This document shows positions 16,343 to 29,522 of a DNA stretch of 64,000 nucleotides, one piece after another. The translations under genes were made by a program, and so were the position numbers. The notes below the pieces were generated by a model. The model had not been told where the DNA came from, searched no databases, and saw nothing but the letters and a program-made list of their open reading frames with translations. Positions within the stretch are counted from its first letter, which is position 1. Each line of letters starts with the position of its first letter. The stretch lies in assembly GCF_008801915.1 (NCBI RefSeq), contig NZ_VZOV01000001.1, positions 310,001 through 374,000 of the forward strand, read 5' to 3'. The stretch comes from Cupriavidus gilardii (GTDB lineage Bacteria; Pseudomonadota; Gammaproteobacteria; Burkholderiales; Burkholderiaceae).

Positions 16343-17743
16343 TCAGCCGCCGACCGACACGCCGCAGGCCACACGCCACGCCGCCGGTTCGGTGATCTCG
16401 TTGGCGGCCTTTGCCGCGGCGGACGCGGGCACGCCGCCGGCATGGACGGCCTGGGTTGCGGCATTCGCCGGTGCATTCGCCGAACCATTCGCCGAACCAT
16501 TCGCCAAACCATTCGCTGCGGCATTCGCTGCGGCATTCGCACCAACCCCCGCGCCTGCACCCGCCCGAATCACCCGGTTGCGCCCTTCGCGCTTGGCGCG
16601 ATAAAGCGCACGGTCGGCCGCGTCGAACAGCTGCTCCCAGCTGCGGCGCGCATCGCCGGCGTCCTCGGCCTGCGCGATGCCGATGCTGACGCTGGCATGT
16701 CCGCCGATTTCCTCCGGCAGCGCGATGCCGGCGATCCGGGCCCGAATCCGTTCGGCCAGCAGCACCGCTTCCTCTTCGCCGGTGTTCGGGCACAGCAGGC
16801 AGAACTCCTCGCCGCCGAAGCGTGCCGCGACGTCGCTGGAGCGGCAGGCGCGGCGCAGCGTCTCGGCGATGTGCTTGAGCACCTGGTCGCCCGCCTGGTG
16901 GCCCGCGCGGTCATTGACCTGCTTGAAGCGATCGACGTCGATCACCAGGCAGGATAGCGGCTTGCCGGTACGACCGGCCTCCGCCGCCAGCGTCATCGCG
17001 GCGTCGTCGAGCGCGCCCCGATGGAACAGCCCGGTCAGCGAATCGAGGCGAGCGCGCGCGCGCTGTTCGGCCAGCTGGCGCTCCGCGCTCAGCAGCGTGA
17101 AACCGACCACGCCGGACAGCACCGCGATCAGCATCAGCAGCAGCGGCGCCTGCGCCAGCATGCCGGGTTCTTCGGGCCCGACCGGGCTCCAGGCGCCGGC
17201 GCCGCCGGCGGCCAGCGCCAGCGCAAGGCACAGGCCCTGCGCGATCAGTTGCGCGCAGCAGGCCACCCACACCAGCACATGGCCGATCGTGTGCGAGCGG
17301 CGTTCGCGGTTGAGCAGGCGCAGCGCCTGCCAGACAACCAGCGCGGTGATCGCATGGCCGAGCGTGCGGATTGCGCGCTCGGCCATCACGGCATCCTGCA
17401 CCGTGGCGATCAGCGCCAGCAGCGCCACCGAAGCGACGCCGCCGGCGACCATCGCGCGCAGATGATGCGGGGCCATCGCCATGCCGCTCGCGGACAGGCC
17501 GCGCACCAGCATCAATTGCGCGCCCAGGCACAGCGCCTGCGCCAGCACCGCCCACAGCGGGGCAGGGGCGATCGCGCCGAGTGCGAGCGCCATGCCGCCC
17601 AGCGAGGCGAAGGCATGGGCGTCGGTCCAGCGTGCACGGTGGCCGGCCTGCGCGGCGCCGTAGCGAAGGCCGATCGAGATGCCCAGCGTGCTGGCGAACA
17701 GCACCAGCAAGGTCAGATAGGCAGTGGGTAAATCCGGCGACAT
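16343..17743 (-). CDS. Membrane diguanylate cyclase (GGDEF)
   Basis: A 466-residue protein with about seven membrane segments in residues 5-230, a short coiled linker (LLSAERQLAEQRARARLDSLTGL) and a complete GGDEF domain. The active site reads GGEEF (310-314), and the inhibitory I-site RSSD (301-304) lies five residues before it, so an active, product-inhibited c-di-GMP synthase is expected. A 50-residue C-terminal tail is built of Asn/Ala/Gly/Ser tetrapeptide repeats encoded by a 12-base tandem array. ATG 17743 has GGGAG upstream; the open frame beyond it is shadow. It is divergent from the Pel-like operon, whose PelD protein is a c-di-GMP receptor. Confidence 0.93.
   Translation of the reverse strand: MSPDLPTAYLTLLVLFASTLGISIGLRYGAAQAGHRARWTDAHAFASLGGMALALGAIAPAPLWAVLAQALCLGAQLMLVRGLSASGMAMAPHHLRAMVAGGVASVALLALIATVQDAVMAERAIRTLGHAITALVVWQALRLLNRERRSHTIGHVLVWVACCAQLIAQGLCLALALAAGGAGAWSPVGPEEPGMLAQAPLLLMLIAVLSGVVGFTLLSAERQLAEQRARARLDSLTGLFHRGALDDAAMTLAAEAGRTGKPLSCLVIDVDRFKQVNDRAGHQAGDQVLKHIAETLRRACRSSDVAARFGGEEFCLLCPNTGEEEAVLLAERIRARIAGIALPEEIGGHASVSIGIAQAEDAGDARRSWEQLFDAADRALYRAKREGRNRVIRAGAGAGVGANAAANAAANGLANGSANGSANAPANAATQAVHAGGVPASAAAKAANEITEPAAWRVACGVSVGG
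16463..16546. repeat. 12-base tandem repeat in the diguanylate cyclase tail
   Basis: Seven consecutive 12-base units beginning ATTCGC (ATTCGCCGGTGC, ATTCGCCGAACC twice, ATTCGCCAAACC, ATTCGCTGCGGC twice, ATTCGCACCAAC). On the minus strand they encode a four-residue repeat of the type AN-x-x. Unit number can change without altering the frame. Confidence 0.85.
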
Positions 17744-18228
17744 GCAATCGTCTCCCTGTGGGCGCGCGGCGGCACCGCGACACCGTTGGTGTAAGGCAAT
17801 GCGCGCCCGGCCATGGCCGGTGCGGCGCGAATACTTGTCAGAGAGCTTGACCCGGATGACGCCGTCGACATTCCCGAAGCTGCGGTCCCTGGTATGGCTC
17901 TGTGTTGCCGGTACGCCGGCAGGCGCAGCCTGATCCCAGTTGCAGTGGCGACCGCGATTGCAACCGCAATCCCGATCCCGATCCCGATCCCGATCCCGAT
18001 TCCAATCGCGCAGCGGGGCCGCGCATCGAGGCACGGCCTGTGATTTTTTTCATGATGGTGATTCTACTGATTGCGTCGAATGGCGCGTGTGCGGCATGCC
18101 ACGTTTGACAATTGTTGACATTCCCTTTTCGTACCGTTCGCTAGGATTCGGCTCGTAGTTACAAATTGATATCCGGGCCGGGAGGAGCGACGACGCCGCG
18201 TCGTCGAGGCAATGAAAACGGGGAAGTC
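17744..18228. promoter_or_regulatory. Divergent intergenic region between diguanylate cyclase and pel-like operon
   Basis: No gene is supported here. It contains five perfect ATCCCG hexamers (17969-17998) flanked by degenerate copies, then an AT-richer stretch. Two overlapping-looking TTGACA boxes (18105-18110 and 18115-18120, in TTTGACAATTGTTGACA) and TAGGAT (18142-18147) suggest a promoter for the + strand operon, but the spacing of 21 from the nearer box is not ideal. The ribosome-binding site of the first gene is weak (GGGAAG). Confidence 0.45.
17969..17998. repeat. Hexanucleotide (ATCCCG)5 microsatellite
   Basis: Five perfect tandem ATCCCG units, with decayed copies on both sides (about 17950-18009). 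It lies upstream of both the cyclase and the pel-like operon and outside any supported coding region. Confidence 0.85.
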
Positions 18229-18909
18229 ATGGGGAAGCAACAGGCGGCGCGCGTCACGCCGCTGAAGTCAGGGGCAATCGCTCCCGCGCGCGAACGTCTG
18301 CTGCCTCCGGCGTTCGCCATCGGCATTGCCGCCGCGATGGGGCTCTGCCTTGCGCTGATGTTTCCGCGCGAGCCGCTGCGCGAACGACTGCTTGGCGAAG
18401 GCGGGCAAGGCGGCCGTGCCCTGGATGGCCCGGCGCTCGCCTATATGGAAGCGTGGCTGCGCGTGTCGCCGCCGGATGCCGCGCTGATCGCGGAGCTGGC
18501 GGAGCAGTTTGCGCACGACGGCAGGCTGGACGACGCGCAGACGCTGCTGGCACGGATGCATGGCGCCAGCGGCGAGGCCGCGCTGCCGATGCTGCGCGCG
18601 CGGCTCGATATCGCGCGGCAGCGGGCCAATGCCGCCGCGTCCGATCCGCCGGCGCGCGAGCGCTATCGGTCCGAGCTGCGCACGCTGCTGCGGCAGGCCG
18701 CGCGAATGCCGGCGCCTGCGTCGGACCTGATCGCTTTCGCCGCGCAAGCCCGCGCGCTCGGCGCCGACGACCTGGAACTGGCCTTCTACCGCGCGCTGGC
18801 GTGCCCGCAGCCCGATCATGCCGCGATTGCCCGATATCGCGCGCGGGCGGTTCCGCTGCGGTCCGAGTGGCGCGAGGATACACGGCCGCCGCCGCGGGTG
18901 CGCGGTTGA
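18229..18909 (+). CDS. Short PelB-like protein (N-terminal anchor plus start of TPR region)
   Basis: A 226-residue protein with a basic N-terminus, one membrane segment (AFAIGIAAAMGLCLALMF, about 25-43) and a helical periplasmic part. The stretch after the membrane (FPREPLRERLLG…ALAYMEAWLRVSPPDAALIAELAEQFAHDGRLDDAQTLLARM) resembles the N-terminus of PelB, which is anchored in the inner membrane and carries TPR repeats ahead of an outer-membrane barrel. PelB is about 1,200 residues in Pseudomonas aeruginosa; here the gene ends after one or two TPR-like helices and no barrel follows. It is the first gene of the pel-like operon, 46 bases before pelD. The assignment rests on similarity by eye and position. 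Confidence 0.5.
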   Translation: MGKQQAARVTPLKSGAIAPARERLLPPAFAIGIAAAMGLCLALMFPREPLRERLLGEGGQGGRALDGPALAYMEAWLRVSPPDAALIAELAEQFAHDGRLDDAQTLLARMHGASGEAALPMLRARLDIARQRANAAASDPPARERYRSELRTLLRQAARMPAPASDLIAFAAQARALGADDLELAFYRALACPQPDHAAIARYRARAVPLRSEWREDTRPPPRVRG

Positions 18910-18955
18910 TGCGGCCGAATCTGACAGCCCGGCCGGGCTGTATCTGGAGAAGTGA

Positions 18956-20446
18956 ATGACTGCAACGGCGATGGGCGACCGGCGCGCGGCTGCGGGCAGC
19001 ATCGCCGCGGCCCGCCGGGCGGACGACGTCCGTGCGGCATGGCTGGCGCCCGCGATGGGGAAGGCCGGTACCCGCACCGCGATGCTGGAACTGATCGTGC
19101 TGATGACCGCGGCGATGGCGCTCGGCTATGCGGCGATGCCCGGCAACCCGCTGCTGCTCGACCTGGGGTTCCCCTGGGCTTGGCTGCTGCCGCTGGTACT
19201 GGCGCTGCGCTACGGCACGCTGGCAGGCATCGGCGCGGCGCTGATGCTGCTTGCCGGCTGGTTGCTGTTCCACCAGATTGGCGCTCAGCCCGGCGCGTTT
19301 CCGCGGCCGTTCTTCATCGGCGGCACGCTGCTGGTGCTGCTGGCCGGCCAGTTCGGCGATGTCTGCGCGAGCCGGCTGGCGCGCCAGCGCTCGATTCACC
19401 GCTATCTCGACGAGCGGCTGACCGCGCTGACCAGGCAGCACTACCTGCTGCGGATCTCGCATGCCCGTCTCGAAAACGATCTGCTGGCAAAGCCGGCGAC
19501 ATTGCGCGATACGCTGGCCCAGCTGCGCGCGGCGACCGCGGAACAGGCGGCCGCGGTAGCGGAGCGTGCCGAGCCGCAGCACGGATCGGCGCATCGCGGC
19601 GAGCGCTCGCCGGCGGGGTCTCTGACCGCCGCTGCGCCGATGCTGCAACTGGCCGCGCAGGCCTGCCAGCTCGAGGCCGCCGCGCTGTATCGCTGCGACG
19701 GCGAGCGGGTGCTGTCGGAAGCCGTGGCGACCGTCGGGCCCGGCTGCGGGCTCGATGACCGCGATCCGCTGCTGCGTCGCTGCCTGCAAAGCCGGCAGCT
19801 GGTGCATCGCCGCACCGACGGGGGCGACGGCATGTCGAGCCGCTATCTGGCGGTGGCGCCGGTATTGTCGGGCCCCGACCGGCTGCTCGGCGTGCTGGTG
19901 GTCGAACGGATGCCGTTCCTCGCGCTGCATCACGACAATCTCGCGCTGCTGCTGGCGCTGCTCGGCTACTACGCCGACGGGGTCGAGCATGCCGCGGCGG
20001 CCCGAGCGGTCGAAGATGCGCTGCCCGGCTGCCCGCACGATTTCGCGCTCGACTATGCGCGGCTGGCACGGCTGCGGCGCGACGCCGGCATTCCGAGCAC
20101 CGTGATCGCGCTGGCCTTCGGCACCGACGAGCACAGCGCCGACTGGTTCGAGCAAGCCGTACGCAGCCATCGCGCGCTGGACCTGGCGTGGGCGTGCGAC
20201 GGCGGTACGCAGCGCGCGCTGATGACGCTGATGCCGCTGGCCGATACCGACGCGGCTTCCGGCTATCTGCTGCGGATCGAACGGATGCTGCAGGCCCAGT
20301 TCGGCATCGATTTCGAACAGGGGCGGATCGGCGTCCATACGCTGCCGGTGCCCGCCGATGGCGATCCCGAAGCGCTGCGGCGCCTGCTGGGACGCTGCGG
20401 CGGCGGCCCCGCGGGCGGCCGCTCGGGGAACGGCCGCGATGCTTGA
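18956..20446 (+). CDS. pelD: PelD-like c-di-GMP receptor
   Basis: A 496-residue inner-membrane protein with four N-terminal membrane segments (about 43-135), a short coiled helix (RLTALTRQHYLLRISHARLENDL), a GAF domain (about 210-345) and a degenerate GGDEF domain (about 350-475). The GGDEF position reads DGGTQ, so it cannot make c-di-GMP, but the I-site RALD (R406-D409) sits exactly five residues before it. This is the arrangement by which PelD binds c-di-GMP and switches on Pel polymer synthesis. An ATG at 18956 follows GGAGAAGTGA. It overlaps pelE by eight bases. The neighbours PelE, PelF and PelG support the call. Confidence 0.88.
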   Translation: MTATAMGDRRAAAGSIAAARRADDVRAAWLAPAMGKAGTRTAMLELIVLMTAAMALGYAAMPGNPLLLDLGFPWAWLLPLVLALRYGTLAGIGAALMLLAGWLLFHQIGAQPGAFPRPFFIGGTLLVLLAGQFGDVCASRLARQRSIHRYLDERLTALTRQHYLLRISHARLENDLLAKPATLRDTLAQLRAATAEQAAAVAERAEPQHGSAHRGERSPAGSLTAAAPMLQLAAQACQLEAAALYRCDGERVLSEAVATVGPGCGLDDRDPLLRRCLQSRQLVHRRTDGGDGMSSRYLAVAPVLSGPDRLLGVLVVERMPFLALHHDNLALLLALLGYYADGVEHAAAARAVEDALPGCPHDFALDYARLARLRRDAGIPSTVIALAFGTDEHSADWFEQAVRSHRALDLAWACDGGTQRALMTLMPLADTDAASGYLLRIERMLQAQFGIDFEQGRIGVHTLPVPADGDPEALRRLLGRCGGGPAGGRSGNGRDA

Positions 20447-21548
20447 GGGCCTGCTCGTTCTGGCCGGCGTCGCGGTCCAGCTGGGTGCGCTGGCGGCGCT
20501 GCTGCAAGGCGACGGCGCCAGCGCCGCGCTGCTGGCGTATCTGGCCTTGCAGACGCTGGCCGCCGCGCTGATGGCCTTGCCGCTGCGGCGTCTGCTGTCG
20601 CGTCGCGTCCGCGTGCCGCTGGGCGCGACGCTGCCGTATCTGTTCGCAGCCGGTGCCTTCGTTCCGTTCGGCGGTGCGCTCGTTGCCCTGTATGTCGTGC
20701 TGCCGGCGATGCTGGCCGACATGGCGCCGTCCGCATGGCGGTCTCGTGCCCGCGCCGCGCAAGGCATGGCGCTGGTGGCGCTGCCCGACTTTGCCTCCGG
20801 CCCGATGTCCCGCGTTGCGCCGGGGACCGACAGCGACCGATCCGCCGATGCCGCGCTCGGGCGCGGACCCGGAACCGCCGACGCCGCGCACGTGCATCGG
20901 CTGACCGCGCTGGCCGCGCTGCAGGACATGCCGGCCCGCCACGTCAGTCCGCTGCTGCGCGCATTGCTCGACGACGACGTCGAGGACGTCAGGCTGCTCG
21001 CCTACGGCATGCTCGATGCGGCCGAGCAGCGGCTGACGCGCCGGATCCTGCAGGCGCGCGAGCGCCTGAACGCGCTCGGCGACGGCGATGCGGCCGGTCG
21101 CGCCGCCGCGCACGAACAGCTGGCGCAGCTGCACTGGGAACTGGTCTATCAGGACCTCGTCCAGGGCGACGTGCGCAGCCACACGCTGGCGCAGGCCGAC
21201 CTTCACGCGCAGGCCGCGCTGCAGGCGCTGTCCGAGGCGCCGGGCGCGACGGCCCTGTACGTCCCGGCCGCCGACGGTTCCGGGGTGGCAAGCCCCGCGG
21301 CCGGCCTGTGGCAGTTGCGCGGCCGGCTGGCGCTGGCGCGCCGCGATCCAGCCGCCGCGCGCGCGGCGCTGCAGCGCGCCACCGCGCTGGGGTTCCCGCG
21401 CCAGCGTGCGCTGCCGCTGCTGGCCGAGGCCGCTTACCTCGATGGCGATTTCGCCGCGGTGGCAACGGCGATGCGCAGCCTGCGCCAGGCCGCGGCGCTG
21501 CCCGCGGCGCCGCAGCTTCAGCCCTTGCTGCGCTACTGGACATCATGA
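20439..21548 (+). CDS. pelE: PelE-like membrane/TPR protein
   Basis: A 369-residue protein with a hydrophobic N-terminal region of several membrane helices (about 1-105, MLEGLLVLAGVAVQLGALAALLQG, then LLAYLALQTLAAALMALPL and a third and fourth segment) and a cytoplasmic all-helical repeat region (about 150-365) of TPR type, including LLRALLDDDVEDVRLLAYGMLDAAEQ and LWQLRGRLALARRDPAAARAALQRA. PelE is a poorly conserved component that joins PelD and PelG in the inner-membrane synthase complex; the one in P. aeruginosa is about 330 residues. The identification relies on position between pelD and pelF and on this architecture. It overlaps both neighbours. Confidence 0.82.
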   Translation: MLEGLLVLAGVAVQLGALAALLQGDGASAALLAYLALQTLAAALMALPLRRLLSRRVRVPLGATLPYLFAAGAFVPFGGALVALYVVLPAMLADMAPSAWRSRARAAQGMALVALPDFASGPMSRVAPGTDSDRSADAALGRGPGTADAAHVHRLTALAALQDMPARHVSPLLRALLDDDVEDVRLLAYGMLDAAEQRLTRRILQARERLNALGDGDAAGRAAAHEQLAQLHWELVYQDLVQGDVRSHTLAQADLHAQAALQALSEAPGATALYVPAADGSGVASPAAGLWQLRGRLALARRDPAAARAALQRATALGFPRQRALPLLAEAAYLDGDFAAVATAMRSLRQAAALPAAPQLQPLLRYWTS

Positions 21549-23212
21549 TCGCGACCATGCCCCACATGCCGAACGCGGCCTTGCCGGCTTCCATCTCGGC
21601 CCCCCGCGACACCTCGCGGCCAGCGGCAGTCGATGTCGCGCTGCTGCTCGAGGGCGGCCATCCGTTCGCGAGAACCGGCGCACCGGGCTGGGCCGAGCGG
21701 ATGATCCGGGCGTTTCCGCAGACCACCTTTGCCATCGTGCTGCTCGCCGACCGTCCGGCGGGCAGCGGCGAGATGGTGGATGCGTTGCCGGACAACGTGC
21801 GTCATCTGCAGATGCATTTGCTGCACGATGAGGATCCGGCCGACGCGATGCCACGGCATCGGGCCGACGAACAGGCCTTTGCCGAGGTGGCGCGGTGGCA
21901 CGATCTGCTGCGCCAGCGCGGCTACGGCGGCAACCGAGGCGGCGCAGGCCATGGCCACGCGGGCGGCCACGCGCAGGCCGGTGCCGCGATGCGTGCGCTG
22001 ATCGAAGAGCTCGGCGACGATGGCCGGCTGTCGGAGCACGCCTTCCTGCACAGCCGAGCCGCCTGGGACACCATCGTCGAGCAGTACCGCCGCTACTGTA
22101 CCGACGTCTCGTTCTCCGACTACATCGGGACCGTGCGCTCGATCCACCGGCCGCTGTGGCGGCTGGCGCGGATCGCGGCCACGCTGATGCCGGCGCGCGT
22201 CTACCACGCGGCGTCGACCGGCTACGCGGGCTTCCTCGGGGCGATGCTGCGCTACCGGCACGACCGTCCGCTGCTGGTGTCGCAGCATGCCGCGCGGACG
22301 CGGGAACATGGCATCGATTCCGGTTATTGCCGCGACCTGTCGCTGCGCTTCTTCGCATCGCTGGGCCGCGTCTGCTACGACGCCGCTGACGAGATCGTCG
22401 CGCTGTACGAGGGCAATCGCCGCCGCCAGGTGCAGGACGGCGCGCCGGCCAGCCGCACGCGCACGATCCCGGACGGCATCGATCTGCCCGCGCTGGCGCC
22501 GTTGCGCGCGCGGCGTCCACCGCAAGTGCCGCAGGTCCTGTGTCTGGCCGGCGGGCTGGTGCCGCGCAAGGACGTCAAGACCTTCATCCGCGCGATGCTG
22601 ACCGTGGTCAGGCACTGTCCCGATGCGCAGGGCTGGATCGTCGGGCCCGAGGACGAGGACGCCGACTATGCGCGCGAATGCCGCGCCCTCGTGCAAAGCC
22701 TGGGGCTGGCCGGCAACGTGCATTTTTTCGGCGCTCGGCCCGTCGGCGAACTGCTGCCGCAGGTTGGCGTGCTGGTGCTGAGCTCGATCAGCGAGGCGCT
22801 GCCGCTGCCGGTGCTGGAAGCCTTCGCCGCCGGCGTGCCGTGCGTGGTCACCGACGTCGGCGCGTGCCGCGAACTGATCGACGGCGTCGGCGACGAGGAC
22901 ATGGCGCTGGGCGTCGCGGGCGCTGTCGTGCGGATCGGCGACGCGGCCGCGCTGGCGCGCGAAGCGGTCGCGCTGCTCGGCGATGGCCAGCGCTGGCGCG
23001 CCGCGCAGCGCGCGGCCATCGTGCGCGCGGAGCGCTATTACACGCAGCATGCGACGCTGGCCAGCTACCGCCAGCTGTACCAGCACCTGGCCGCGAAGCC
23101 GCACGCCGATGCCGGCGCACGAGGCGGCGTCGGCCGTCCGGTGCTGCCGGCCACGCCGCCGGCGGCCGAACGGCAGCCGGCCGGTCGTTGCCCGTTTGCC
23201 GGAGCGCCATGA
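21545..23212 (+). CDS. pelF: PelF-like glycosyltransferase
   Basis: A 555-residue GT4-type glycosyltransferase, longer than the usual 500. It keeps the PelF outline: DVALLLEGGHPF near residue 30, NVRHLQMHLL, the second-domain CLAGGLVPRKDVKTFIRA, and the EX7E motif E417-ALPLPVL-E425. Two usually conserved pieces differ: the GGVSSW loop is RTGAPGW (43-49), and the TEHGIY segment reads SQHAARTREHGID. It has a Gly/His-rich insertion after about residue 120 and an extra Pro/Ala-rich tail. In Pel systems this cytosolic enzyme polymerises the sugar chain. Start overlaps the pelE stop (ATGA). Confidence 0.85.
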   Translation: MIATMPHMPNAALPASISAPRDTSRPAAVDVALLLEGGHPFARTGAPGWAERMIRAFPQTTFAIVLLADRPAGSGEMVDALPDNVRHLQMHLLHDEDPADAMPRHRADEQAFAEVARWHDLLRQRGYGGNRGGAGHGHAGGHAQAGAAMRALIEELGDDGRLSEHAFLHSRAAWDTIVEQYRRYCTDVSFSDYIGTVRSIHRPLWRLARIAATLMPARVYHAASTGYAGFLGAMLRYRHDRPLLVSQHAARTREHGIDSGYCRDLSLRFFASLGRVCYDAADEIVALYEGNRRRQVQDGAPASRTRTIPDGIDLPALAPLRARRPPQVPQVLCLAGGLVPRKDVKTFIRAMLTVVRHCPDAQGWIVGPEDEDADYARECRALVQSLGLAGNVHFFGARPVGELLPQVGVLVLSSISEALPLPVLEAFAAGVPCVVTDVGACRELIDGVGDEDMALGVAGAVVRIGDAAALAREAVALLGDGQRWRAAQRAAIVRAERYYTQHATLASYRQLYQHLAAKPHADAGARGGVGRPVLPATPPAAERQPAGRCPFAGAP

Positions 23213-24594
23213 TGGTGGACCTGTCCTTCTTCGTCCGCGGCATTCGCGACCGCAACCGTGTCGGCGGCACGCTGCAGGCCTACGGCTTCGCCGGCGTGCT
23301 GGCCTGCGGCGCCGTGGCGCTGGCGATCGCCGGCCTGTTGCAGATCGCCATGCGCGCAATGGCGGCCGGACTGCCGGCAGCGTTGCCGTCCGCGCTGGCG
23401 GTGCAGTTCGAGGTATCGGCGACCTGCCTGATCGCCGCGAGCCTGATCCTGACCGGACCGCTGCAGCTTCATCTGGTGCGCTTCGCCGCCGAGCGCCTGG
23501 CCGAAGGGCGCGGCGAACTGGTGCTCCCCGGCGTGCGTGCGGTGGGGCTGGTCGTCACCGTGCTCGCGGGAATATCTGGCCTCGCGTGCCTGCTGTGGGC
23601 CTTTCCGCAACAGTCGGCGCTGTACCGCGCGCTGATGCTGGCCGGCTTCGTGCTGATGTGCCATGCCTGGATCGCGGTGGCCTTCCTGGCGGGCATGAAA
23701 CAGTACGGCACGATCGCCTGCGCCTTCGTCGCCGGCATTGCGGCGGCGTCCGTCGCGGCGCTCGCGTTGCGCGGCTTCGGCGTGGAAGGATTGCTGGGCG
23801 GCTTCGCGATCGGCGTGCTGGTGCTGTGGGCCGGCACCGCGATGCCGATCCATCGGCACCATCGCAGCCGGCGCCTGCTGTCCTTCGCGGTGTTCGCGCG
23901 CCGTCATCGCTATCCGAGCCTGATCGCGATCGGGCTGCTGTATCCGCTCGCCGTCTGGATCGACAAGCTGCAGTTCTGGTACCACGCGGGCACGGGCCAG
24001 CCCGTCGTCGGTCCGCTGCATGCGTCCGCGATCTACGACATTCCGGTGTTTCTGGCCCACCTCGCCGTGGTGCCGGCCATGTCCGTGTTCCTGCTGCGGA
24101 TCGAGCGGGATTTCGTCGCCCATTACGATGCCTTCGCCGAGGCGGTGCGCGGCGGCGGCTCGCTGCAGCGTATCGAGGAGTCGCGCAATGCGATGGTGCG
24201 GGCCGTGCGGATGGGGCTGTACGAGATCGTCAAGGCGCTGGCGATCGCGGCGCTGCTGCTGTTCGCGCTCGGCCGGCCGCTGCTGGCGCTGTTCGGCATG
24301 ACGCAGCTGTACCTGCCGCTGCTGCATGTCGACATGGTCGCCGCGGGCCTGCAGGTGGTGCTGCTTGCCACGCTGAGCCTGTACTTCTATCTGGACCGGC
24401 GCCGCGAGGTGTTGCTGCTGGGCGCGGCGCTGCTGGCGTTGAACGCGGGCCTGACGCATCTGACGCTGACGCTCGGGCCGGCCTGGTACGGCTACGGTTT
24501 CGCATTCGCGGTGCTGATCGTGGTGGCGATCGCGCTGGTGCTGCTGGACCGCCGGCTCGAGCGCCTGGAATACGAAACCTTTATGTTGCAGTAA
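23209..24594 (+). CDS. pelG: PelG-like polysaccharide membrane transporter
   Basis: A 461-residue integral membrane protein with about twelve predicted helices, close to the 456 residues of PelG. It starts MMVDLSFFVRGIRDRNRVGGTLQAYGFAGVL and retains the family-like FWYHAGTG segment and the FLLRIERDFVAHYDAF loop. PelG is a MATE/PST-like transporter that moves the nascent Pel chain across the inner membrane together with PelD, PelE and PelF. Two adjacent ATG codons (23209 and 23212) are possible; the GGAG at 23201 favours the second slightly. It overlaps the pelF stop. The operon apparently ends here, with 151 bases before the next gene. Confidence 0.9.
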   Translation: MMVDLSFFVRGIRDRNRVGGTLQAYGFAGVLACGAVALAIAGLLQIAMRAMAAGLPAALPSALAVQFEVSATCLIAASLILTGPLQLHLVRFAAERLAEGRGELVLPGVRAVGLVVTVLAGISGLACLLWAFPQQSALYRALMLAGFVLMCHAWIAVAFLAGMKQYGTIACAFVAGIAAASVAALALRGFGVEGLLGGFAIGVLVLWAGTAMPIHRHHRSRRLLSFAVFARRHRYPSLIAIGLLYPLAVWIDKLQFWYHAGTGQPVVGPLHASAIYDIPVFLAHLAVVPAMSVFLLRIERDFVAHYDAFAEAVRGGGSLQRIEESRNAMVRAVRMGLYEIVKALAIAALLLFALGRPLLALFGMTQLYLPLLHVDMVAAGLQVVLLATLSLYFYLDRRREVLLLGAALLALNAGLTHLTLTLGPAWYGYGFAFAVLIVVAIALVLLDRRLERLEYETFMLQ

Positions 24595-24745: not shown

Positions 24746-25450
24746 ATGAACATCGCATCGGTCGAAGACGATCCGAGCCAGGCCGAGCTGATCCAGCAGA
24801 TCCTGATCAGCGCCGGGCATACCTGCGACAGCTATTCGGGCGGCAAGGCGTTTCTGCGCGCGATGCGCGAGCGCTCGTACGATCTTCTGGTCATGGACTG
24901 GCAGCTGCCCGACATCAGCGGCTATGACGTGGTGACGCACGTCCGGCTGCATTCGGGGCAATACCCGCCGATCCTGTTCCTGACCAGCCGGTCGCTGGAA
25001 GAGGACATCGTGATGGGACTGGCCGGCGGCGCCGACGACTACATGATCAAGCCGGTGCGCAGGGGCGAATTGCTGGCGCGCGTGGGCGCGCTGCTGCGCC
25101 GGACCTATCCTTCGGCCCAGGCCAACGAGGCCATCGTGGTGGGCGCCTACCGGCTCGACCCGGTGGCGCGCACCGCCAGCCTGAACGGCGTCGAGGTCGA
25201 TATCGCGCCGCGCGAATTCGATCTCGCGCTCTATCTGTTCCGCAACATGGATCGGCTGCTGGCGCGCGACGTCGTCGAGCAGGCGGTCTGGGGGCGTTCG
25301 CTCGGCGCGAGTTCGCGCACGCTCGATACCCATCTGTCGCGGCTGCGCATCAAGCTCGGCCTGCGGCCGGAGAACGGCGTGCGGCTCGCGTCCGTGTACT
25401 CCTACGGCTATCGTTTCGAGCGCTGCGCGGAGCAGGCCGATGGCGCGTAA
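24746..25450 (+). CDS. OmpR/PhoB-type response regulator
   Basis: A 234-residue two-domain regulator. The receiver (about 1-120) has the acidic pair D8-D9, the phosphorylation site D51 in VMDWQLPD and the conserved Lys in DDYMIKPV. The C-terminal winged helix (about 135-230) has the family landmarks REFDLALYLFRNMDRLLARDVV…RTLDTHLSRLRIKLGL and SYGYRF. ATG 24746 fits the receiver start. It begins a three-gene unit with the LysM/FecR gene (11-base overlap) and the CHASE2 kinase, which should be its cognate sensor. Its closeness to pelG suggests it regulates the polymer cluster, but this is inference. Confidence 0.93.
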   Translation: MNIASVEDDPSQAELIQQILISAGHTCDSYSGGKAFLRAMRERSYDLLVMDWQLPDISGYDVVTHVRLHSGQYPPILFLTSRSLEEDIVMGLAGGADDYMIKPVRRGELLARVGALLRRTYPSAQANEAIVVGAYRLDPVARTASLNGVEVDIAPREFDLALYLFRNMDRLLARDVVEQAVWGRSLGASSRTLDTHLSRLRIKLGLRPENGVRLASVYSYGYRFERCAEQADGA

Positions 25451-27133
25451 GGGTGGCAGGGCCGCGGCCGCCGCTGTAGCGGCTGCGGGCAGGGCGGTCG
25501 TTGCCGCGTGCACGCTGCTGGCCTTCGCGCCGGCGCAGGCGGGCCCGGCCGGCGCCGACGGCGAATATTTCGTGCATCAGGTGGAACCGGGCGATACGCT
25601 GTTCTGGGTCGCGCAGCGCTATACCGGCCGCGCCGACGTCTGGCGCGAGCTGCAGGCGCTGAACCGCGTCGCCGATCCGTATCGGCTGCCGATCGGTACC
25701 CAGGTCCGCATTCCGCTCGCGCGCATTCCGGTGACCGTCACCAGCGCGCGCGTGGTGTCCGTGGTCGGACAGGCCGATGCCAACGGCGCGGCGCTGCGGC
25801 CGGGCATGCGCGTCGACGAGCGGCCTGGCTGCAGACGGGCGCCGATGGCCTGGTGACCTTCGAGCTGACCGACGGCACCCGCGTCGCGATGCCGCCGGCC
25901 ACGCGGCTGCAGGTCAAGCGTCTGCGGGTGTTCGCGGGCACGGGGCTGGGCGACACCGTGATGGAAGTCGAGCGAGGCGGTATCGACTCGCGCGTCGCAC
26001 CGGGTGGGACCGGCGTGGGCCGCTTCGAGATCCGCACGCCGATGATGGTCACCGGCGTGCGCGGCACCCGCTACGCGGTCGATGCGGGCCAGCCCGCCGA
26101 ACCCGGCCGGCGTGCCAACAGCAGCGCGGTGCTCGAGGGAACCGTGGCGGTGCGGGCGCAGCGCGCCAAGCGGACCGTGACCGCCGGCCACGGCATCGCC
26201 ATCGGCAGCACGGGCGACGCGGCGGTGCACACGCTGCTGGCGGCGCCGACGTTGAGCGCGGTGCCGGCCGAGCCGATCTACGCCAGCCACGCCGAAGTGG
26301 GCTGGCAGCCGGTCAAGGGCGCAATCGGCTACCTGGTCCGTGTCACGCGCGATGCCGAGCGTACCGAAGCGGTATTCGCCAGCACCGTCACGCCGCCGGC
26401 CGCGGCGCTGACCGGATTGCCCGATGGGGCCGCCTATCTCGAGGTGCGCGCGATCGATCGCAACCGCATTCCGGGCAACGCCGCGATCGCGCCGCTGACC
26501 GTGCGGCTCAACCCGCCGGCGCCCTATACGGTCGAGCCGGCGCCGCGCAGCACGGTGCATGGCGCAGCGGTGCATCTGCAATGGGCGGCGGTCGACAACG
26601 CCGCCGAGTACCGCTTCGAAATCGCCTCGGACGAGAAATTCGGCACGCCGGCCGCGCAGGGCAGCACCCGCGAGGCGGGCACGCAGCAGACGCTGGCGCC
26701 GGGCGACTGGTGGTGGCGCGTGCGTTCGATCGATGCCAAGGGGCAGCCCGGGCCGTGGAGCGCGCCGGTGCCGTTCCGTATCCTGCCGCCGGCGCCGGGC
26801 GTCGCCGTGGTCGAGGACAACGGCGGCGCGTTGCGCGTGCGCTGGGGCGCGGCCGGACAGCCGGAGGCATTCGCGCCGCAGGCCTATCGGCTGCAGCTGG
26901 CCGAGGAGCCGGGTTTTGCCCGCCCGCTGCAGGACCAGCGCATCGAGGCGGACGCCGCGGCGCTGCCGCGTCCGCCGGCCGGCGTCTACTACGTGCGGGT
27001 CGCACGCATCGAGCGCGATGGCAGCGAGTCGCCGTTCTCGGCGGCGCAGCGCATCGAGATCCACGAGCATCTGCGCGACGGCACGGGGGCTCCGATCGGT
27101 ACTGCCAGCGGCAGTGTGCGCCGTGGCGGATAG
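25440..27133 (+). pseudogene. LysM/FecR-domain secreted protein, frameshifted
   Basis: The frame from ATG 25440 encodes a signal peptide, a LysM domain (about 40-92: YFVHQVEPGDTLFWVAQRYTG … LPIGTQVRIPLA) and the start of a FecR domain (ALRPGMRVDE), then stops at 25854-25856. The missing remainder continues without a break in a second frame to 27133: WLQTGADGLVTFELTDGT, the FecR core with MVTGVRGTRYAV, and fibronectin-like repeats. One base is missing near 25821, between GACGAG and CGGCCTGG; restoring it gives a protein of about 564 residues. LysM binds peptidoglycan and periplasmic FecR modules signal to partner kinases or cyclases. Either a true mutation or a sequencing error is possible. 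Confidence 0.85.
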
Positions 27134-29522
27134 CCGTTTTCGCCTGCCCCAGTTGCGCACGGCCGCGGGCAGCGGCCTGATCGCCGGCTTTCATCGGCGC
27201 ACGCTGATCGAATGGCTGGCACTGACCATGCTGGTGATGGTGCTGGCCGCGGTGCGCGCGGACTTCGGCGCGAGCCAGCGCCTGGACCTCGCGGTCTACG
27301 ACATCGGCATCGCCGCGCAGCAGCACGCGCCGCGCGACGACATCCTGATCGTCTCGATCGACGATGAATCGCTGTCCGCGGTGGGCCGCTGGCCATGGCG
27401 CCGTTCGCTGCTGGCCGGGCTGGTCGATCGGCTGGCCGACGGCGGCGCGCGCGCGATCGGGCTCGACGTGCTGCTGGTCGAGCCGGACTGGCGCCATCCC
27501 GAGGACGACGAGGCGCTGGCGGTCAGCATGGCCCGCGCCGGCAACGTGATCATTCCCGCGCTGGCGGAGCCGGTGCGCGATGGCTACCGGCTCAGCTATC
27601 CGCTGCCGGCGCTCGGGGCCGACGTCGGGCATATCAATATCGCGACCGATGTCGACGGGCTGGCCCGCCATATCTATCTGCAGGAAGGCCTGCCCGGCCA
27701 GATGCTGGACCATTTCGTCGTGCGCCTGGTGCAGTTCGGGCAGCCGCAGCGGCCGCTGGCAAGCTACCGGCAGGTGCCGGTCGACGAGACGCTGTCCGGC
27801 GAGTGGCATCGCCGCTATCGGCTCGGCATTCCGTTCGCCGGGCCGATCGGCACCTTCCGCACGGTGTCGGCGATCGACGTGCTGAGCGGCGCCATTCCGC
27901 CCGAGCTGTTCCGCGGCAAGCTGGTGCTGGTCGGCGCCGGCGCGACCGGTCTGGGCGACATGTTCTCCGCGCCGCTGTCGAAGAACGGCGCCGGCATCAG
28001 CGGCGTCGAGCTGCTGGCCAATGCCGCGCAGGCGCTGCTCGACAACAACGGCATCGTGCCGGTGCAGCGCGCCTGGTACTGGTCGCTGACGCTGCTGCCG
28101 GTGCTGCTGGCCTGCCTGGCCGCGCTGCTGATGTCGCCGCGGGACGCGCTGCTGGTCAGCGCGGCGGTGATCGTCGGGCTGTTCGGCGCCAGCGTCGCGC
28201 TGATGCATTTCGATCGGCTGTGGTTCTCGCCGGTGCCGGCGATCCTCGCCTGCCTGCTGTTCTATCCGCTGTGGAGCTGGCGCCGGCAGGAATCGGCACT
28301 GACCTTCCTGTCGGCCGAGGTCGCGCGGCTCGAACGCGAGCCGGCGCTGCCCGGCGGCAAGAGCGCGCCGCCGCTGGCCGGCGGCACGCTGGACACACGA
28401 ATGAGTGCGCTGTACCGGATGATCAGGCGGCAGCGCGACCTGCGCCGGCTGCTGTCCGACGGGCTCGAGAACCTGCCCGATGCGACGGTGATCTGCGACG
28501 CGGACGGCAGCATCCTGCTGGCCAATGCCGGCGCGGTTGCGTTGTCGCCGCGGCTGCTGTCCTCGCTCAATGCCGAAGGCGGCGCGCGTCCGCTGCTCGA
28601 TACGCTGATCGCCGACATCTTCGCGCCGCCGCAGGGCGGGCTCGACTACTGGGATCGGCTCCGGCGCTCGGCCGGCAATGGCGCGGCGTCGACGCGCGGC
28701 GAGCGGGCCGGGGTCGAGCTGCAGACCCACGACCAGCGCGCGATGCTGCTGCGCGGTGCGCCGCTGCGCGGCAACGCGGGTGAGATCGCGGGCTTCAGCA
28801 TCAGCTTCATCGACATCACGCAGGTGCGGCTCGCCGAGCGCCAGCGCGAGGAAACGCTGCGCTTCATCTCGCACGACATGCGCTCGCCGCAGGCGTCGAT
28901 CCTCGCGCTGGTCGAACTGCAGGCCGACCCGGCGCGCGCGCTGGAGCCGCCGGTGCTGCTCGACCGGATCCGCCATCATGCCGGCCGCACGCTGGCGCTG
29001 GCCGACGACTTCATCCAGCTGGCGCGCGCCGAATCGCAGCATCTGCGCTTTGCGGAGATCGACCTGACCACGGTATTGATGGACGCCGCCGATTCGCTGT
29101 GGGCGCTGGCGCAGACCCGCCGCGTGACCGTCGCGGTGCAGGCTGGCAACGAGGAGATGATGCTGTACGGCGAAGCAGCACTGCTGATGCGCGCCATCTC
29201 GAACCTGGTCGACAACGCGGTCAAGTACAGCCCGCCGGGCGGCACCGTGACCGTACGCGCCGGCCGCGTGCGGCACGACGACGGCAGCGATGGCGGCCTG
29301 ATGGTGTCGGTCTCCGACCAGGGGCCGGGCATCGCGCCCGAGGAACAGGCGCGCCTGTTCCAGCCGTTCAGCCGGCTGCAGGAAGAGGGCCGTCCGGTGC
29401 GCGAGGGCAGCGGTCTCGGGCTGCTGTTCGTCAAGACCGTGGTCGAGCGGCACGGCGGCCATGTCGGCGTCGACAGCGCGCCCGGGCGCGGCACGACGTT
29501 CGTGATCACGTTGCCGGGTTGA
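27123..29522 (+). CDS. CHASE2-domain sensor histidine kinase
   Basis: A 799-residue membrane sensor. One N-terminal membrane segment (about 27-45) is followed by a large periplasmic CHASE2 domain (about 55-310; DILIVSIDDESLSAVGRWPWRR, ARAIGLDVLLVEPD, FRGKLVLVGAGATGLGD) and three more membrane helices. A PAS-like region (about 450-570) leads to a HisKA domain with H584 in FISHDMRSPQ and an ATPase domain with NLVDNAVKYSPPGG, DQGPGIAP and GSGLGLLFVK. All kinase motifs are intact. Start is a GTG at 27123 (another GTG at 27114 is possible), overlapping the LysM/FecR gene. CHASE2 plus FecR-LysM pairs are recurrent in betaproteobacteria and probably sense the envelope. Confidence 0.88.
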   Translation: MADSRFRLPQLRTAAGSGLIAGFHRRTLIEWLALTMLVMVLAAVRADFGASQRLDLAVYDIGIAAQQHAPRDDILIVSIDDESLSAVGRWPWRRSLLAGLVDRLADGGARAIGLDVLLVEPDWRHPEDDEALAVSMARAGNVIIPALAEPVRDGYRLSYPLPALGADVGHINIATDVDGLARHIYLQEGLPGQMLDHFVVRLVQFGQPQRPLASYRQVPVDETLSGEWHRRYRLGIPFAGPIGTFRTVSAIDVLSGAIPPELFRGKLVLVGAGATGLGDMFSAPLSKNGAGISGVELLANAAQALLDNNGIVPVQRAWYWSLTLLPVLLACLAALLMSPRDALLVSAAVIVGLFGASVALMHFDRLWFSPVPAILACLLFYPLWSWRRQESALTFLSAEVARLEREPALPGGKSAPPLAGGTLDTRMSALYRMIRRQRDLRRLLSDGLENLPDATVICDADGSILLANAGAVALSPRLLSSLNAEGGARPLLDTLIADIFAPPQGGLDYWDRLRRSAGNGAASTRGERAGVELQTHDQRAMLLRGAPLRGNAGEIAGFSISFIDITQVRLAERQREETLRFISHDMRSPQASILALVELQADPARALEPPVLLDRIRHHAGRTLALADDFIQLARAESQHLRFAEIDLTTVLMDAADSLWALAQTRRVTVAVQAGNEEMMLYGEAALLMRAISNLVDNAVKYSPPGGTVTVRAGRVRHDDGSDGGLMVSVSDQGPGIAPEEQARLFQPFSRLQEEGRPVREGSGLGLLFVKTVVERHGGHVGVDSAPGRGTTFVITLPG

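Follow-up and report, generated by a model that had tools for sequence, protein, structure and literature searches.

A reduced pel locus in Cupriavidus that keeps PelDEFG and the PelB anchor without PelA, PelC or the PelB barrel

Introduction

In the pelABCDEFG operon of P. aeruginosa an inner-membrane Pel synthase stands beside an export half made up of PelA, PelB and PelC, and the linkage between the two in Gram-negative bacteria has been called unclear (PMC13254593). PelB may begin with a helix that stays uncleaved in the inner membrane (PMC12141448), while PelA binding was assigned to PelB repeats 9-14 (PMC12022489). For PelF, R325, K330 and E405 were named as proposed UDP-glucose sites (PMC10185581). 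Here we describe a pel locus in which PelDEFG is accompanied by only the beginning of PelB. It lies in a stretch of 64,000 nucleotides from Cupriavidus gilardii (NCBI RefSeq assembly GCF_008801915.1, contig NZ_VZOV01000001.1, positions 310,001 to 374,000), hereafter the window; the genome is referred to as G000.

Results

Five plus-strand genes at window positions 18229-24594 were identified as the PelB N-terminus (PelB-N, 226 residues), PelD, PelE, PelF and PelG (Table 1). Profiles of Pfam and NCBIfam matched PelD (PelD_GGDEF, 1.1e-41), PelF (NF038011, 3.5e-182) and PelG (PF16933, 1.2e-115). No pel model in these searches matched PelE or PelB-N, and the sole NCBIfam row for PelB-N scored 20 bits where the cut-off is 700, too little to carry meaning. 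By alignment, PelE is 43-47% identical to PelE of eight complete Cupriavidus operons, and PelB-N is 43-49% identical to their PelB over about 190 residues. An initial annotation, made from the sequence alone, had taken the 226-residue protein for the start of PelB; this identity is supported by the alignment to Cupriavidus PelB and not by any profile. Among the components of a Gram-negative pel operon, the window holds PelD, PelF and PelG by profile and PelE by alignment, while PelA, the PelB outer-membrane barrel and PelC were not detected in the genome. The locus descends from a pel operon, yet does not amount to a complete Pel export system. The overlaps described in the initial annotation were found at D/E, E/F and F/G, and 46 bp separate pelB-N from pelD. 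The pelF ATG overlaps the pelE stop; an alternative start at 21557 was used in one locus search.

The export half was searched for with PelA, PelB and PelC of a complete-operon Cupriavidus locus (L038, genome G131). In genome-wide searches of G000, PelA gave no match even at E 10, PelC gave nothing above chance (best E 0.48; controls 1e-99 to 3e-125), and PelB matched only through residues 5-191 of 1359, that is, the anchor and a few repeats. The GH114 domain (PelA hydrolase) was not found in G000. Three relatives with the same arrangement were retrieved through PelG, namely Cupriavidus sp. RH59 (G380), C. cauae (G079) and C. gilardii (G145), and together with G000 they are called the reduced clade. 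None of the four genomes contained PelA, PelB or PelC above chance apart from the PelB piece (the best remaining rows had E 0.12 for PelA and E 0.20 for PelC), the PelB barrel was found in none of them, and a second PelA query was negative in all four. As controls, full-length PelA, PelB and PelC were matched in G131, the query's own genome, and in G220. Two further Cupriavidus genomes were searched with the same queries: PelA, PelC and a fragmented PelB were matched in G370, and none of the three in G184. These results agree with the initial annotation that PelA and PelC are absent and PelB is cut to its anchor. The check proposed there, a search for export genes displaced elsewhere in the genome, returned none; nor was a leftover PelA or PelC detected above chance in window 17001-21000.

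To describe selection on the retained genes, codon models were run on gap-free columns of the four reduced and eight complete Cupriavidus loci. Inside the reduced clade, where IQ-TREE support was weak (49 and 73), the tree was set by hand; a rerun on the IQ-TREE topology gave nearly identical omega values. It can be seen that omega did not differ between the reduced clade and the complete operons for pelB-N (0.147 versus 0.146; twice the log-likelihood difference, 2dlnL, 0.00) or for pelD (0.118 versus 0.103; 2dlnL 0.86). Constraint was relaxed in pelE (0.175 versus 0.076; 2dlnL 27.6), pelF (0.123 versus 0.070; 2dlnL 17.4) and pelG (0.136 versus 0.050; 2dlnL 39.8). Nevertheless, omega=1 was rejected in the reduced clade for every gene (2dlnL 164 for pelB-N, 352 for pelD, 216 for pelE, 395 for pelF and 326 for pelG), and the same held for each gene when the terminal branches of the four species were tested singly (2dlnL 10.8-93.3). 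For pelB-N, the estimate on a short internal branch was an unstable omega of 2.1. All 20 gene copies (five genes in four species) are open reading frames, with no premature stop or frame break. Free decay of the locus, and with it the decaying operon considered in the initial annotation, is contradicted by the codon models and the open copies, even though pelE, pelF and pelG are relaxed.

Conservation was then compared with 17 reference loci, 16 with A/B/C genes and one (L054) without. Columns invariant in these loci were kept by all four reduced species at 135 of 194 positions in PelF, 96 of 143 in PelG, 76 of 83 in PelD and 10 of 11 in PelE. When seven of the 17 loci were left out one at a time, each kept 86-100% of the columns of PelF, PelG and PelD; the corresponding values for G000 were 74-76% for PelF, 77-81% for PelG and 92-93% for PelD. 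For PelE the leave-one-out values were 85-100%, except for L054 (11/57, probably a failed alignment of its row). In PelF of the reduced clade, GGVSSW is replaced by TGAPGW or similar and EHGIYTKER by QHAARTREH or similar, and in G000 alone a block of about 20 residues including WIRDNR is missing.

The proposed UDP-glucose sites were inspected together with E413, which we take to be the second glutamate of the EX7E motif. One of these four donor-site residues is altered in each species: the R325 equivalent is G in G000, P in RH59 and K in C. gilardii, and C. cauae has Q in place of E413. The K330 and E405 equivalents are kept in all four. By comparison, none of the four residues is altered in any of the 21 loci with pelA, pelB and pelC beside pelDEFG (two of them, L044 and L086, with split genes, and one, L085, with only the hydrolase part of PelA matched), nor in any of the 16 loci without A/B/C in a second genus of the family, g10. 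In both groups the motifs vary slightly at most, for example as GGVSAW, EHGSYTKER or WLRDNR. Therefore PelD to PelG, called intact in the initial annotation, are so in their reading frames and not in the PelF active site, and the statement that the inner-membrane synthase is kept does not hold for the PelF donor-site motifs in any of the four species. An AlphaFold model of PelF from a four-sequence input (mean predicted local distance difference test, pLDDT, 38.5) was useless for the active site. In PelD, alignment to 4etz showed that the RxxD motif and the R402-equivalent arginine are kept in all four species; the tested ligand residues are consistent with a c-di-GMP switch that is still in place, as the initial annotation had proposed.

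PelB-N matches residues 5-191 of the 1359-residue Cupriavidus PelB at 50%. A single strongly hydrophobic stretch spans residues 27-45, and helical repeats are predicted to about residue 190, followed by a disordered tail. This tail has no relation to PelB: of the nine conserved columns past residue 190, not one is preserved throughout the four species. In the AlphaFold model (mean pLDDT 67.6) helices are well predicted only at about residues 80-190, and the membrane helix is of low confidence. A Foldseek search with this model gave no significant match (best E 0.11), and many of the top rows were repeat proteins; the model suggests that a tetratricopeptide repeat (TPR) fold is likely. Sequence searches against solved structures gave chance-level rows only for PelB-N (best E 0.2) and nothing at E 0.001 for complete PelB. 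The PelA-binding repeats 9-14, as placed in PMC12022489, fall beyond the portion retained here.

Among 60 Cupriavidus genomes, 43 have a PelG match: the four reduced ones, 36 with full-length PelG and three with fragments (G370, G385, G184). A comparison of the PelG and barrel lists showed that all 36 full-length-PelG genomes also have the PelB barrel. The reduced gene set, with the same junction after pelB-N, occurs in four of the 60. In the eight complete Cupriavidus loci compared (L038-L043, L045, L046), pelABCDEFG adjoins the same response regulator gene as in the window, which lies 3' of pelG in 8/8; the FecR gene is present in seven, and the eighth stretch ends early. A relative (44%) of the upstream diguanylate cyclase precedes pelA in one of the eight (L043). 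The junction that follows pelB-N, and with it a short intergenic stretch, is common to the four reduced loci. The shared junction and flanks indicate that the loss preceded the divergence of the four species and took place at the same position, and from these we infer an ancestral loss of pelA, pelC and about 85% of pelB for the C. gilardii-like clade. At least two deletions would be needed because the retained pelB start sits between the lost parts. The initial annotation had asked for the same locus in relatives: both reduced and complete operons are found there, and what remains in the window is under selection and not pseudogenised.

Split or fragmentary pel genes were seen in other Cupriavidus (G370, locus L086; G385; G184), an apparent decay. 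At L044, in a g24 genome, PelB is split into a 238-residue N-terminal piece, minus-strand open reading frames resembling a putative transposon insertion, and the remainder.

Across 398 genomes of the family, PelG was found in 146 and the PelB barrel in 120. PelG without the barrel was found in 27 genomes. These comprise the four of the reduced clade, G385 with a PelG fragment, and 22 genomes of genus g10; in one of the latter (G257) PelG lies at a contig end. These 22 are among 29 PelG-bearing g10 genomes; the other seven have both PelG and the barrel. At the 16 g10 loci examined (L054, L067-L081), each from one of the 22, PelDEFG was present with no PelA, PelB or PelC match nearby. A well-matching galE lies downstream in 12 of them, a fragmentary one in two and none in two. 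PelA was not found genome-wide in any of the 22 barrel-less g10 genomes. The neighbourhood is conserved, and no PelB-like candidate for a replacement was recognised by inspection, no further search having been made. Because no flanks match the Cupriavidus locus, the g10 arrangement is probably of separate origin; PelDEFG without the export half apparently arose there independently. GH114 was not found in 17 of the 22 genomes; in the other five (G168, G186, G192, G210, G222) it occurs elsewhere (E 7e-84 to 3e-87), in a protein that is possibly a polygalactosaminidase.

In a class-wide sample PelG was found in 24 of 369 genomes, and the barrel passed the cut-off in 16 (21 at E 0.001). Barrel-less PelG looks uncommon outside this family, though divergent barrels may be missed. 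Three genomes of family f54 (G449, G588, G693) have distant PelG-like proteins (E 6e-17 to 1e-23) and no PelB barrel match.

Table 1. Genes of the reduced pel locus and its immediate flanks (window coordinates)
Feature	Position	Strand	Description
diguanylate cyclase, GGEEF motif	16343..17746	-	divergent; upstream flank conserved in four reduced loci
pelB-N	18229..18909	+	226 aa; predicted membrane helix ~27-45, helical-repeat region; homologous to PelB 5-191 of 1359; tail unrelated from ~194
pelD	18956..20446	+	membrane helices, GAF, degenerate GGDEF; RxxD (406-409) and GYLLRI arginine (440) align to P. aeruginosa PelD c-di-GMP residues
pelE	20439..21548	+	369 aa; hydrophobic helices N-terminal
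pelF	21545..23212	+	GT4-type glycosyltransferase; donor-site motifs rewritten; conserved block of ~20 residues missing
pelG	23209..24594	+	predicted polysaccharide transporter, diverged
response regulator	24746..25450	+	downstream flank, common to complete-operon Cupriavidus loci

Further downstream, a CHASE2 histidine kinase gene (window 26667-29522) follows the response regulator and the FecR gene in reduced and complete loci alike; pairwise NG86/YN00 estimates for this kinase against C. gilardii covered only 45 codons (wrong start). The LysM/FecR gene at window 25440-27133 is in two frames (25440-25856 and 25508-27133), as against one 571-residue frame in C. gilardii (L004), which reflects either a frame break or a sequencing error.

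Discussion

The results can be accommodated if the C. gilardii-like clade goes back to an ancestor with a standard pelABCDEFG operon, from which pelA, pelC and the distal 85% of pelB disappeared before the clade diversified. The inner-membrane module left behind would comprise five proteins: PelB reduced to its anchor, PelD as the c-di-GMP receptor, and PelE, PelF and PelG. Since the PelB N-terminus is retained under unchanged constraint without the remainder of the protein, it may work with the PelDEFG complex and not solely in the outer-membrane exporter. The complex would still respond to c-di-GMP, and PelF would be without normal UDP-sugar transferase activity, so that the complex might make little glycan or a different one that stays in the envelope, or might act without polymerising. 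With a probability of roughly 0.6, we consider that the locus encodes an inner-membrane complex which is under selection and linked to c-di-GMP, and that its export of Pel has ceased. The residue changes favour PelF as an altered or dead glycosyltransferase in the retained complex. A more specific version is put forward only tentatively: here the Pel synthase would have become an inner-membrane complex that is gated by c-di-GMP, contains a pseudo-glycosyltransferase and exports nothing, and the PelB anchor would be a true PelDEFG subunit, in ordinary Pel systems the missing physical link between synthase and exporter.

Several observations weigh against a selected complex with an inactive PelF. 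The change of R to K in C. gilardii PelF is mild, the assignment of E413 as a site is tentative, and PelF, being under purifying selection (omega 0.12), could still be an active enzyme that uses a different donor or mechanism. Of the 37 PelB-N columns that complete operons conserve, only 20 are retained by all four species; for the homologous part alone the count is 20 of 28. The control response regulator has omega 0.040 in the reduced clade versus 0.118 in the complete operons (2dlnL 11.8), and the pel genes are relaxed relative to this neighbour. Stem omegas are unreliable on such long branches (neutral lengths 2-6), and the whole comparison is based on four genomes and on sequence.

Open frames under selection, and K330 and E405 equivalents that none of the four species has changed, would also be expected of an active synthase whose modified, undeacetylated polymer stays in the periplasm or exits through an unrelated outer-membrane exporter. 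Genus g10, which keeps PelDEFG without A/B/C, intact PelF donor residues and mostly a well-matching galE, lends this some weight. However, it is difficult to reconcile with a change at the R325 or E413 equivalent in each species, with the rewritten GGVSSW and EHGIYTKER motifs and with the block missing in G000, and we regard it as doubtful. A slowly decaying remnant, whose function is gone and whose genes are not broken yet, appears distinctly unlikely. The roughly twofold relaxation of PelE, PelF and PelG, the variation of catalytic positions among species and the broken or fragmentary PelG of other Cupriavidus would fit such decay, but the rejection of omega=1 on every terminal branch, the unchanged constraint on PelD and PelB-N and the absence of any premature stop or frame break among the 20 copies would not. 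Although G000 is in 115 contigs, an assembly artefact, with export parts lying elsewhere or dropped, is highly improbable, for the same junction occurs in four separate assemblies rated 91-100% complete and the export-part searches are negative in all of them.

The loss of the export half except the PelB anchor, which is held under the constraint of the full machine, points to the anchor as the connector on the synthase side. The two cases suggest that Gram-negative bacteria can keep PelDEFG without the export half, and that this has probably happened twice in one family; therefore the presence of pelDEFG should not be taken to mean that Pel is exported. A 2010 genome paper on Cupriavidus metallidurans reportedly mentions a pel operon. 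In the accessible text of the open-licence literature searched, neither the reduced Cupriavidus operon nor the PelDEFG set of g10 was found described.

Compared with described systems, the locus resembles the Gram-positive pelDEADAFG of Bacillus cereus and streptococci (PMC7112168, PMC12345266) in having an inner-membrane set without the PelB barrel and PelC. Those operons, in contrast, carry the deacetylase PelADA in cells with no outer membrane, whereas the present locus is Gram-negative, has no PelA match and has a piece of PelB. There is no room for a PelADA between pelE and pelF, which overlap, and two Gram-negative PelA queries were negative. The pelB fissions and operon rearrangements described in PMC7112194 are similar in that PelB is altered and operon loci are lost or moved; unlike in those cases, distal PelB was not found in the genome here. 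The g10 PelDEFG loci of the same family likewise have no PelA, PelB barrel or PelC at the locus, but they differ from the window locus in that no PelB N-terminus was found, the PelF donor residues are intact, and galE lies downstream in 12 of 16. The closest relative is pelABCDEFG of P. aeruginosa and of most PelG-bearing Cupriavidus. Unlike that operon, the window locus is without PelA, PelC, and the barrel and distal repeats of PelB, and its PelF donor-site motifs are changed; it has in common with it the order and families of PelDEFG, the c-di-GMP residues of PelD and the N-terminal anchor of PelB.

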